64,000 nt of DNA from Prosthecobacter debontii (GTDB taxonomy: Bacteria; Verrucomicrobiota; Verrucomicrobiia; Verrucomicrobiales; Akkermansiaceae): assembly GCA_945869465.1 (NCBI GenBank), contig CAMBPB010000001.1, forward strand, positions 1 through 64,000, in the 5' to 3' direction. How positions within the stretch are numbered: the first letter of the stretch is position 1; each line of letters starts with the position of its first letter. A model generated the notes under the pieces. That model saw only the letters and a list, made by a program, of their open reading frames with translations, was not told where the DNA came from and made no database searches. Positions 1,607-48,553 of this stretch are shown here, in pieces. A program made the position numbers and the translations under genes.

Positions 1607-2803
1607 TCATTCCGCGATGGCGTCCCGGCACCAGGCGAGGGCCATGAGGGCGTAGCCGGTGCCGTAGGGCTGGTGGTAATCGTAGAGCGGATAGTCCCAC
1701 CACGAGCCGTCCTTTTCCTGGCGCTCCAACAGAATGGCGGTGAGTCCCTTGGCATAGGCGGCGTGGGTTTCCTTGGGCAGCAGCTCGACGGATTCGGTGA
1801 AATAGTAGATGCCGTAGTAATAGAAATAACCGGAGATGCGGAAGAACGTCGAATGGGGCACCGGCCGTTTGCGGCCATTGCTGAGAAACCCTTCCCGGGC
1901 GAGGAACCGGTCGGCCCAGGTGGTGAGGACTTCATCGGTCACGGCTTTTTCGCCAAAGATCCGCAGGCAGGCGTTGCAGGCTTGCGATCGGGCGAGCGAA
2001 CCGGCGGGCCGGTTGATATCGACGCGCGGATGCATCCGGTGGGAAAACGAATAGGTGTAGGAGAAATCGGGCGTGCGCTGATAGTTGATGGAGGCGATCG
2101 AGCGCTTGGCGATCGTTGCATCGAGTTTCACGCCCATCACCTCGCGGGCCTCGGCCATGGCGAGCAGCACGGTGGCGGTGGTGAAGGAGGTGGGCAGTCC
2201 GGAGGGTTTCTGCGTGGTGAGGTCGTCGAAGAGATCGAGATAACCCCAGCCGCCGTTGACCTCTTCGTAGCGGTTGGCGAGATCGACCTGTTCCTGGGCG
2301 AGGCGGGCCCATTCGGTTTTTTTGGCGGGATCCTTTTCGCGCTGATAGAGACGAGTGATGGCGCGAAGACCGTAGGCGTGGCCCCAGGCGTTGTAGGTGG
2401 TGGTCTGATCGGCGCGGCGGAGTTTCGGCAGCTCGGCGGCGGTCCACGCGGCCGCCTTGTCGATGGCGGAAGCGACCTCGGGCCGGGCATCGGCGGCATC
2501 GATCAATCCTGCCAGCGCCAGGCCGGTGGCACCGGCGCGAAAGGCGTGGTGGGCGCCGGGCAGCGGGGCGTAGATGTTGAGTCCCTTGGTGCGGGTGGGG
2601 CCGCCCCACGAGCCGTTGGGGTTCTGAGCGGTTAGAAGAAAATCCACCCCGCGGCGGATCGAGGCATCGAGGGTGGCGCGGGTGATTTCGGGCTTGGCGG
2701 CGGGGGCCTCCGCGGAGAAAGCGCAGCAGGATAGAGTTAGAATCAAGACGCAAGACGCAAGACGAAGAGGAAGAATCGGCGAACCGGTGCCCCGGGCCGC
2801 ACG
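1607..2803 (-). CDS. Secreted prenyltransferase/squalene-oxidase-repeat (alpha/alpha toroid) protein
   Basis: About 398 aa. The start at 2803 is preferred because AGGA lies six bases upstream of this ATG and the product then begins with a clean signal peptide (basic start, hydrophobic PLRLASCVLILTL, small residues AFSA before the mature EAPAAKPE). An ATG at 2827 would add eight residues. The mature part has repeats of the type GVDFLL.AQNPNGSWGG, GGWGYLD and ILLERQEKDGSWWDYP, which are QW-like repeats of the squalene-hopene cyclase/prenyltransferase toroid fold. The acidic DXDD cyclase motif is not seen, so this is not a true cyclase. Such exported toroid proteins are common in Verrucomicrobiota and Planctomycetota and have no known role. 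Part of the signal-peptide coding region is a heptamer repeat (2743-2777). Confidence 0.8.
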   Translation of the reverse strand, partial: RAARGTGSPILPLRLASCVLILTLSCCAFSAEAPAAKPEITRATLDASIRRGVDFLLTAQNPNGSWGGPTRTKGLNIYAPLPGAHHAFRAGATGLALAGLIDAADARPEVASAIDKAAAWTAAELPKLRRADQTTTYNAWGHAYGLRAITRLYQREKDPAKKTEWARLAQEQVDLANRYEEVNGGWGYLDLFDDLTTQKPSGLPTSFTTATVLLAMAEAREVMGVKLDATIAKRSIASINYQRTPDFSYTYSFSHRMHPRVDINRPAGSLARSQACNACLRIFGEKAVTDEVLTTWADRFLAREGFLSNGRKRPVPHSTFFRISGYFYYYGIYYFTESVELLPKETHAAYAKGLTAILLERQEKDGSWWDYPLYDYHQPYGTGYALMALAWCRDAIAE

Positions 2804-2875
2804 CATATTAGATCCTGGGAAATGCATCAGAGGTTTCTGCTCTTGTCTTCTCTTGTCTTGAAGTCTTGTGTCTTC
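2743..2875. repeat. Heptamer array pair between the adaptor gene and the toroid-protein gene
   Basis: The left arm (2743-2777) reads in 7-nt register TCAAGAC, GCAAGAC, GCAAGAC, GAAGAGG, AAGAATC. The right arm (2845-2875) holds four GTCTT cores spaced 10, 8 and 7 nt and abuts the stop codon of the adaptor gene. CAAGAC and GTCTTG are reverse complements, so the arms can pair. The left arm lies inside the signal-peptide codons of the toroid protein. The architecture resembles the arrays in the atp and gcv operons. Confidence 0.65.
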
Positions 2876-12217: not shown

Positions 12218-12223
12218 GGAGAA

Positions 12224-12308
12224 GTTGGTGAGTGTTCAGTGTTCAGTTTGCAGGAAACACTGCGGAACTGGACCTGCTCACTGAAAACTGAAAACTTGCA
12301 ACTGAAAA
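12224..12308 (+). repeat. Paired heptamer arrays between atpD and atpC
   Basis: Array 1 (12224-12258) follows the atpD stop by six bases: GTTGGTG, AGTGTTC, AGTGTTC, AGTTTGC, AGGAAAC. Array 2 (12281-12308) ends four bases before the atpC ATG: CTGAAAA, CTGAAAA, CTTGCAA, CTGAAAA. The second array is roughly the reverse complement of the first (TTTTCAG against TGTTCAG words). The unit length is exactly 7 throughout. Confidence 0.8.
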
Positions 12309-12312
12309 CGTT

Positions 12313-35944: not shown

Positions 35945-36207
35945 TTCGACCCGGACCGCGAGTCTGTGACTCGTCTGCGGAAGAGAACGCCGCAGAGAGC
36001 CGCCTTTTGGCAGATCGCTTCGACCCGGACCCCGAGTCTCTGACTCGTCTGCGGAAGAGAACGCCGCAGAGAACCGCTTTTTGGCAGATCGCTTCGACCC
36101 GGACCGCGAGTCTCTGACTCGTCTGCGGAAGAGAACGCCGCAGAGAACCGCCTTTTGGCAGATCGCTTCGACCACGCTTCCTCAGGCGAGTCACAGACTC
36201 GCGGTCC
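35945..36207. repeat. Three 74-bp tandem repeats plus an inverted cap between convergent genes
   Basis: Exact 74-bp spacing: units at 35945-36018, 36019-36092 and 36093-36166, with a partial fourth at 36167. Each unit holds two dyads, CGAGTC/GACTCG (3-nt spacer) and TCTGCGG/CCGCAGA. An inverted copy of the unit core follows at 36177-36207, matching about 28 of 31 positions. After it comes a short CCCGCGGAC repeat (about 36210-36232). The whole lies between two convergent stop codons (35928 and 36236), so it could terminate both transcripts. Confidence 0.9.
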
Positions 36208-46803: not shown

Positions 46804-47874
46804 ATGTCCGCTCTGAAACACTCGCCGCTTGAGGCCGCCCATCAGGCTCTCGGTGCCCGCCTCGTCTCCTTCGCGGGATGGAACATGCCGGTCCAATACT
46901 CGTCGATCATCGATGAACACACCGCCGTCCGCACCAAGGTCGGTATTTTCGATATCTCCCACATGGGGCAGTTCCTCGTCAGCGGCCCCACCGCCGAAGC
47001 CTGGCTGAACCGGATGTTCACCAACAACATCTCCAGACTCGCCCCCGGCCAAGGGCAATACACACTGATGCTCAACGACAACGGCGGCGTGATCGACGAT
47101 CTCATCGGCTACCGCACCGGGGAAAACGACTACTTCCTCGTGGTCAACGCCTCGATGATCGAGCCGGACTTTTTCTGGCTGGCCAGCCATCAGGATGAAC
47201 AGGTGATCCTTCGCAACGAAAGCGACCTCTGGGCCGGCATGGCGATCCAGGGCCCGGTTGCCGCGGAAACCTTCGCCATCGTCTGTCCGGGCGAGACCCT
47301 GCCTCCCAGAAATGGCATCGTCACCACCGCCGCGGGTGCCATCGTCTGCCGCACCGGCTACACGGGCGAGGATGGCTTCGAGTTCTTCTGCCCCGCCGCC
47401 GAGGGCATCTCATGGTGGCAAAAATTCCTCGCCGCCGGTGCCGCCCCCTGCGGTCTTGGCGCGCGCGACACGCTGCGCCTCGAAATGGGCTACCCGCTCA
47501 ATGGCAACGACCTCTCGCCCGAACGCTCGCCAATCGAGGCCGGTCTCGGGCTTTTCTGCGATCTCGAAAAACCCGACTTCATCGGCCGCGATACCCTCCT
47601 GCGCCAGAAATCCGACGGCCCGGCCGTGAAACTCACCGCACTTCAATACACCGCCAAAGGCCCGCCTCCCCGCGCCCATTACCCGGTTTCCTCCGCCGCC
47701 GGCACCGTCATCGGCGAACTCGCCAGCGGCGCGCTTTCCCCGTCCCTGATGACCGGCATCGGCATGGCCTACCTCCCCGCCGAATACTCGAAGCCCGGCA
47801 CCGATCTCCAAATCGACGTCCGCGGCCGGCGGTTCCCCGCCAAAGTCGTGAAAAAGCCGTTTTATAGGAAATAG
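46804..47874 (+). CDS. gcvT: Aminomethyltransferase, glycine cleavage system T protein
   Basis: 356 aa from MSALKHSPLEAAHQALG. T-protein motifs: LVSFAGWNMPVQYSSIIDEH, VGIFDISHMGQFLVSGP, NDNGGVIDDLIGYR (conserved Asp), TGYTGEDGFEFFC, and GLGARDTLRLEMGYPLNGND. It releases ammonia and transfers the methylene group to tetrahydrofolate. gcvH follows after a 301-nt gap filled with repeats. gcvP and lpd are not in the window. No glycine riboswitch could be recognised in the 225 nt upstream. Confidence 0.95.
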   Translation: MSALKHSPLEAAHQALGARLVSFAGWNMPVQYSSIIDEHTAVRTKVGIFDISHMGQFLVSGPTAEAWLNRMFTNNISRLAPGQGQYTLMLNDNGGVIDDLIGYRTGENDYFLVVNASMIEPDFFWLASHQDEQVILRNESDLWAGMAIQGPVAAETFAIVCPGETLPPRNGIVTTAAGAIVCRTGYTGEDGFEFFCPAAEGISWWQKFLAAGAAPCGLGARDTLRLEMGYPLNGNDLSPERSPIEAGLGLFCDLEKPDFIGRDTLLRQKSDGPAVKLTALQYTAKGPPPRAHYPVSSAAGTVIGELASGALSPSLMTGIGMAYLPAEYSKPGTDLQIDVRGRRFPAKVVKKPFYRK

Positions 47875-47881
47875 ACAGATG

Positions 47882-48173
47882 AATCGGAGACGGAAGACGG
47901 AAGGCGGCAAGAGAATTCCACCAACCTCCGGCCGCTTCACTTTCCGCGGCTTTATTCCCAGTCTTCTGTCTTCTGTCGCGCCATCTTCTGTCTTTCCCAT
48001 GAACTCCCGCGGAATGCCGAAATGGCGCGAAAAGCAGCGGTCCCTTCCGATCTTTTGTCTCGCCATGGCCTGCGGAAACGCTGGGATGAATGGGCCATCG
48101 CTCTCGGGCTGGAACGATGACAACAAGCTTCCTCTCAACTCCCAACCATCCACTATCAACTCGCAATCTCTTC
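47882..48173 (+). repeat. Two sets of heptamer arrays between gcvT and gcvH
   Basis: Set 1: AATCGGA, GACGGAA, GACGGAA, GGCGGCA (47882-47909), starting seven bases after the gcvT stop, and GTCTTCT, GTCTTCT, an 8-nt GTCGCGCC, ATCTTCT, GTCTTTC (47961-47996). Segments 47889-47903 and 47963-47977 pair over 15 bp as RNA with two G-U. Set 2 is the gcvH leader: CTCTCAA, CTCCCAA, CCATCCA, CTATCAA, CTCGCAA, TCTCTTC (48132-48173), ending two bases before the ATG. Set 2 shares the CTnnnAA form with the atpG, atpD and atpC leaders. Confidence 0.75.
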
Positions 48174-48175
48174 CC

Positions 48176-48553
48176 ATGAACACCCCCAGCGACCTCCGCT
48201 ATTGCTCCTCCCACGAATGGGTCCGCCTTGAGGGCGACCTCGCCACCGTGGGCATCTCCGATCACGCCCAGGAAGAACTCACCGACGTCGTCTTCGTCGA
48301 GCTCCCCGCCGTCGGCCGCTCCGTCGATGCCGGGGATCCGACCGCCGTCGTCGAGTCCGTCAAGGCCGCCAGCGACATCTACGCCCCCGTCGGCGGCGAG
48401 GTCGTCGAGGTCAACCCGGAGGTCGAAGCTGATCCGTCGCTCGTCAACACCGATCCCTACGGCAAAGGCTGGATTTTCAAACTCCGCGTGAAAAACCCCG
48501 CGGACGTTTCCAACCTGATGGACGCCTCTGCCTATCAGGCGCATCTCTCGTAG
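48176..48553 (+). CDS. gcvH: Glycine cleavage system H protein
   Basis: 125 aa from MNTPSDLRYCSSHEWVRLEG. The lipoyl-attachment motif is AVVESVKAASDIYAP, with the modified Lys in VKAAS. GDPTAVVES and PSLVNTDPYGKGWIFKL complete the family pattern. H protein shuttles the aminomethyl group between P, T and L proteins. The frame stays open upstream to an ATG at 47999 immediately behind another repeat array, but the extension has no homology to H proteins, so 48176 is taken as start. Confidence 0.95.
   Translation: MNTPSDLRYCSSHEWVRLEGDLATVGISDHAQEELTDVVFVELPAVGRSVDAGDPTAVVESVKAASDIYAPVGGEVVEVNPEVEADPSLVNTDPYGKGWIFKLRVKNPADVSNLMDASAYQAHLS

Follow-up and report, generated by a model that had tools for sequence, protein, structure and literature searches.

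Heptamer arrays at co-directional gene junctions of Prosthecobacter debontii and its congeners, including a gcvT–gcvH gap that holds a dead gene

The gap between the glycine-cleavage genes gcvT and gcvH, located in the 64,000-nt stretch of DNA analyzed here (the window), carries two reverse-complementary arrays of 7-nt units, the remnant of an inserted gene, and a third, degenerate array that leads into gcvH. Arrays of the same period lie almost exclusively between genes elsewhere in this genome and in its congeners, mostly in co-directional gaps, and where one gap has two of them they tend to be inverted pairs. We favor, at a probability of roughly 55%, the explanation that these intergenic heptamer arrays originate through slippage, that their arms are kept alike at the DNA level, and that their placement is filtered by selection.

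Gene calls placed gcvT (aminomethyltransferase; 46804..47874, forward strand; Pfam GCV_T 4.4e-83 and GCV_T_C 2e-20) upstream of gcvH (glycine cleavage H protein; 48176..48553, forward strand; Pfam GCV_H 1.1e-45), and the distance from the gcvT stop codon (TAG, at 47874) to the gcvH ATG (at 48176) leaves a gap of 301 nt (47875–48175). The original prediction had described a gap of this length with a GACGGAA array following the stop codon of gcvT and a reverse-complementary GTCTTCT array behind it, and the gene calls, a period-7 scan, and shuffling bear out that description. The stop-side GACGGAA array, AGACGGAAGACGGAAGGCGG, spans 47888..47907, and the GTCTTCT array, GTCTTCTGTCTTCTGTC, spans 47961..47977 (both read on the forward strand, each with a score of 10), the latter running on imperfectly to about 47995 by way of a broken continuation, ATCTTCTGTC, at 47983. 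Among 5,000 shuffles of the gap, two arrays of equal score were never obtained (0), and at least one array appeared in 2/5,000. The predicted stem, GACGGAAGACGGAAG / CTTCTGTCTTCTGTC, can be read directly off the sequence as 15 bp with exactly two G-U pairs, and RNAfold lengthens it into a hairpin at about 47873..47993 (forward strand; −49.9 kcal/mol, z −4.6), with 0/200 shuffles being as stable. The strand given for this hairpin is that of the message; as DNA, the inverted repeat is present on both strands. We found no terminator-like site (a stem followed by a T run) within 47800–48250, and no Rfam match to a known RNA family. The third array, five degenerate CTNNCAA units at 48132..48166 (forward strand), matches itself at 19/28 positions at offset 7, a level equaled by 0.1% of shuffles at period 7 and by 0.67% when any period from 4 to 12 is allowed. 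This array is weaker than the other two yet above chance, and it leads into gcvH.

The nearest relatives of this gcvT are found in Luteolibacter and Akkermansiaceae metagenome-assembled genomes (MAGs), the host itself being Luteolibacter-like, and comparison with relatives revealed that the gap contains a dead gene. In relative L011 (gcvT identity 88%), gcvT and gcvH are 679 nt apart, with two overlapping open reading frames (ORFs), about 57 and 173 aa long, between them (L011:4084-4724); the same pair lies between gcvT and gcvH in relative L019 (L019:2084-2739), is sited elsewhere in other relatives, and is represented by further intact copies in L280-L283. Judged against the intact pairs, the protein match, and the translations, the segment at 47999..48120 (forward strand) is what is left of this two-ORF insertion after loss of its middle. 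Its 5′ part (47999–48049; MNSRGMPKWREKQRSLP) comprises codons 1–17 of the small ORF and its 3′ part the final codons of the 173-aa ORF, with the stop at 48118–48120; since the former codons run straight into the latter, the middle has been deleted. Consistently, the 173-aa protein used as a query matched 48046-48114 with 83% identity over residues 150–172 (E 5.6e-7). The breakpoint was taken from protein matches, as global alignment with L011 and L019 scattered its gaps and was set aside. Searches of Pfam, NCBIfam, and PADLOC at the chosen cut-offs gave no family for the inserted ORF pair; by our own reading of the sequence, the larger ORF has a nucleotidyltransferase-like stretch (YAIGGATAAGFHG..TRDVDVFVF).

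Because the continuation of the GTCTTCT array stops directly before the dead-gene start, the gap represents two successive junctions rather than one junction with three arrays: a first from gcvT to the dead gene, bearing the paired arrays, and a second from the dead gene to gcvH, bearing one start-side array. The three arrays that the original prediction assigned to a single gap are real, but the second ends shortly ahead of the dead gene at 47999–48120 and does not belong to gcvH. In L014 and L020, which are without the insert, a GACAGAA/TTCTGTC pair stands directly between gcvT and gcvH, and the pair may or may not predate the insert. The gcvT–gcvH gaps of relatives have other heptamers or none, even in L011, and the hairpin is missing from this gap in close relatives.

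To place these arrays in their genomic setting, we scanned periods 2 to 15 across 1.22 Mb (34%) of the 3.59-Mb, 161-contig MAG, taken as stretches, in which genes and their starts were called with our own hexamer model. Period-7 arrays numbered 35 in 144 kb of intergenic DNA versus 9 in 1,073 kb of coding DNA (24.3 versus 0.84 per 100 kb), and shuffles yielded 0. Other intergenic periods (5, 6, and 8–11) gave 1–8 arrays each, and period 14 follows from period 7. Period 7 stands out only in intergenic DNA, and the arrays are almost confined there. Arrays occupied 27/502 co-directional, 3/100 convergent, and 4/139 divergent gaps of this sample; seven gaps had two arrays, all of them co-directional, and more such gaps were found in the congeners. 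Five congeners displayed the same heptamer excess and array pattern, the congener sequence having been picked partly for TTCTGTC arrays, with only G000 and most of G018 unselected. Since TTCTGTC reversed is the same heptamer up to rotation, the reversed-pattern control was uninformative. Within the window itself, paired arrays also mark a junction at 2747..2875 (reverse strand; CAAGAC / GTCTTG), which was earlier tied to a putative ATP synthase, and another at 12218..12312 (forward strand; AGTGTTC / ACTGAAA). The proposal that this architecture extends beyond ATP synthase therefore holds, given that paired arrays recur at other co-directional junctions both here and in the congeners. The window also includes a tandem repeat of a different kind at 35945-36173 (74-nt unit, 3.1 copies, 96%).

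We then asked how the two arrays of a gap relate to each other. Over 34 gaps, the second array complemented the first at 4.88/7 positions, relative to 4.03 for permuted partners (P 0.0006), and the corresponding values for this genome alone were 5.43 and 4.25 (P 0.022, 7 gaps). One exception is the co-directional gap G000:C4:32803-33065, in which about ten copies each of AGATTGG and CTGCCCT (forward strand) are 4/7 complementary. Stems were present in 45/85 co-directional, 2/7 convergent, and 0/10 divergent array gaps, and folding z-scores fell below −2.5 in 44% of co-directional array gaps versus 11% of array-less ones. These distributions, together with the z of −4.6 predicted in the gcvT–gcvH gap, are what one would expect if an RNA hairpin were under selection at operon junctions, acting like enterobacterial REP/BIME elements to shield the upstream message at its 3′ end or to decouple expression of the next gene. 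Nevertheless, we regard such a hairpin as unlikely, albeit with an appreciable chance of being correct, in view of the missing terminator-like site and Rfam match, its absence from the gcvT–gcvH gap of close relatives, and the way in which the stems vary. Selection for pairing of the sense-strand RNA should make transitions to G-U more frequent than transitions to A-C, and array stems do not behave in this manner: their departures comprised 103 G-U versus 156 A-C, with 9 stems leaning toward G-U and 30 toward A-C, whereas non-array stems were even (390 versus 379). Given that cells of the same array depend on one another, these counts amount to no support for RNA selection rather than to a strong opposite signal, and the reading of the arrays as an RNA stem in the original prediction gains nothing from stem variation. 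A broader form of the idea, namely a sequence-agnostic hairpin module at the operon junctions of this Verrucomicrobiota clade, in which any heptamer may serve provided that stop- and start-side arrays are reverse complements and in which structure is selected while the sequence is replaced between species, appears to us rather doubtful.

The arrays also tend toward a strand bias. On the sense strand of six pooled genomes, stop-side arrays were G-richer and start-side arrays C-richer (23:13 versus 1:17, P 3e-5), a tendency that was not significant in this genome alone (P 0.30). The start-side C bias is partly background, as array-less gaps are likewise C-rich before starts. Purine versus pyrimidine content was considered as the orientation rule and rejected, being a tendency only; G versus C skew fits better. 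Shine-Dalgarno motifs were not enriched in the 1.22-Mb sample (2.0% of starts versus 2.5% in shuffled sequence), in which gene starts were C-rich at −1 and −2 (57% and 48% C, respectively) and depleted of G upstream; Akkermansia is listed as a genus in which such motifs are scarce (PMC10783764). In a genome of this type, G-poor arrays before starts would be harmless or useful. Starts led by arrays are indeed G-poor, and TAACTGA-type units precede starts in the congeners, so that start-side arrays could be imagined as selected, G-poor, unstructured ribosome landing sites that replace Shine-Dalgarno motifs and are possibly bound by S1 or a cold-shock protein, as MacGregor proposed for TAACTGA (PMC4679880). 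We deem this improbable, because one gap has a different heptamer from the next, making a sequence-specific binder unlikely, most starts have no array, array-less gaps share the C-richness, and the stop-side partner array is left unaccounted for.

We also considered a mobile origin, in which the arrays would be the arms of a dispersed palindrome (a MITE or a RAYT-mobilized REP) that inserts at gene junctions. Heptamer units are repeatedly separated by a 12-nt spacer, CCGCTGCGCTCC, or by its complement, in many gaps of several genomes (G036, for instance at C66:40931-41175, as well as L159 and L020), and Y1-type transposase domains were detected in 4/4 genomes searched. However, a single copy of the spacer was present in the 1.22-Mb sample of this genome, the heptamers vary from gap to gap, and the transposase flanks bear other palindromes and almost no heptamer arrays, so a mobile origin strikes us as very improbable. 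The RAYT/REP variant was rejected, as Y1 transposase genes are not flanked by the heptamer palindromes. Separately, L259, L261, L263, and L264 have short RAYT-like Y1-transposase genes (about 151 aa) with flanking palindromes of their own (for example, CCAGGGCAACGCCCTGG) that are unrelated to the heptamer arrays.

What favors slippage over a selected RNA hairpin is the combination of (i) the lack of a G-U preference, (ii) the turnover of arrays between species, and (iii) the clustering of unit variants, in that long arrays had 131 adjacent identical pairs versus 80 expected, which is what local duplication would give. Under the slippage explanation, replication slippage would lengthen and shorten intergenic heptameric simple-sequence repeats, a process already proposed for bacterial heptamers (PMC4692102, and a 2007 survey cited in PMC4679880). 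Template switching between the arms of a quasi-palindrome could then keep both arms alike at the DNA level, and selection would mainly determine the positions and the strand at which arrays can persist, those poor in G probably suiting the leaders of a genome lacking Shine-Dalgarno motifs. As for the gcvT–gcvH gap, its paired arrays separate gcvT from an inserted gene that was later gutted by deletion, and gcvH is preceded by a G-poor array of its own. Three observations count against the slippage explanation: the avoidance of divergent gaps by arrays and stems, a feature not required by a purely neutral process; the surplus of A-C departures in stems, which stays outside it; and the non-significant orientation in this genome alone.

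The closest known counterparts are the GGGAATC and GGGGA(T/C)T repeats of Xanthomonas and Nostoc, which form intergenic heptamer arrays between aligned genes and are under-represented between divergent ones (PMC4692102, 2015). In the 50 bp that follow a stop, the G-rich strand of these repeats is the sense strand; in the 50 bp that precede a start, it is the antisense strand. Xanthomonas has 70-75 inverted pairs that could fold into stem-loops (PMC4692102). The present arrays have in common with the Xanthomonas repeats the heptameric unit, intergenic placement, avoidance of divergent gaps, and inverted pairs within one gap, and they lean toward the strand rule when pooled over six genomes, partly through background composition and not significantly in this genome alone. 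In contrast to the one G-quadruplex-forming heptamer per genome of Xanthomonas and Nostoc, many heptamers are used here, often swapped at the same gap between species, and GACGGAA and most other units have no run of three G. REP/BIME elements are palindromic and lie between genes downstream of stops. Unlike the present arrays they are not heptameric, having a fixed 20-40 bp consensus (PMC3733652), and the palindromes that flank RAYT-like loci here are of other kinds. TAACTGA direct repeats, known from Beggiatoaceae, Cyanobacteria, and Bacteroidetes, lie just upstream of starts that have no Shine-Dalgarno motif (PMC4679880, 2015); units of this type are shared with the congeners of the present genome, but that system consists almost entirely of one heptamer, on the start side, with a single inverted repeat genome-wide, whereas many heptamers and paired arrays are found here. 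In the P6b region of the Nostoc tRNA-Leu intron, degenerate heptanucleotide repeats of variable copy number pair into a hairpin (PMC3488679), although inside a group I intron rather than between protein genes. Heptamers are the commonest long-repeat class in most genomes, according to the 2007 survey cited in PMC4679880. Among the open-license papers searched, we found none on heptamer arrays in Verrucomicrobia. The arrays described here carry a little-studied heptamer rule (co-directional gaps, a strand that tends to follow the closer stop or start, and inverted pairs) from Xanthomonas into another phylum, and they raise the questions of why the period is seven and what preserves the complementarity of the arms despite sequence turnover, in a lineage whose starts lack Shine-Dalgarno motifs. 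Overall, the Verrucomicrobiota arrays resemble the known Xanthomonas-type repeats in placement, inverted pairing, and, in the pooled genomes, strand tendency, but draw on many different heptamers.
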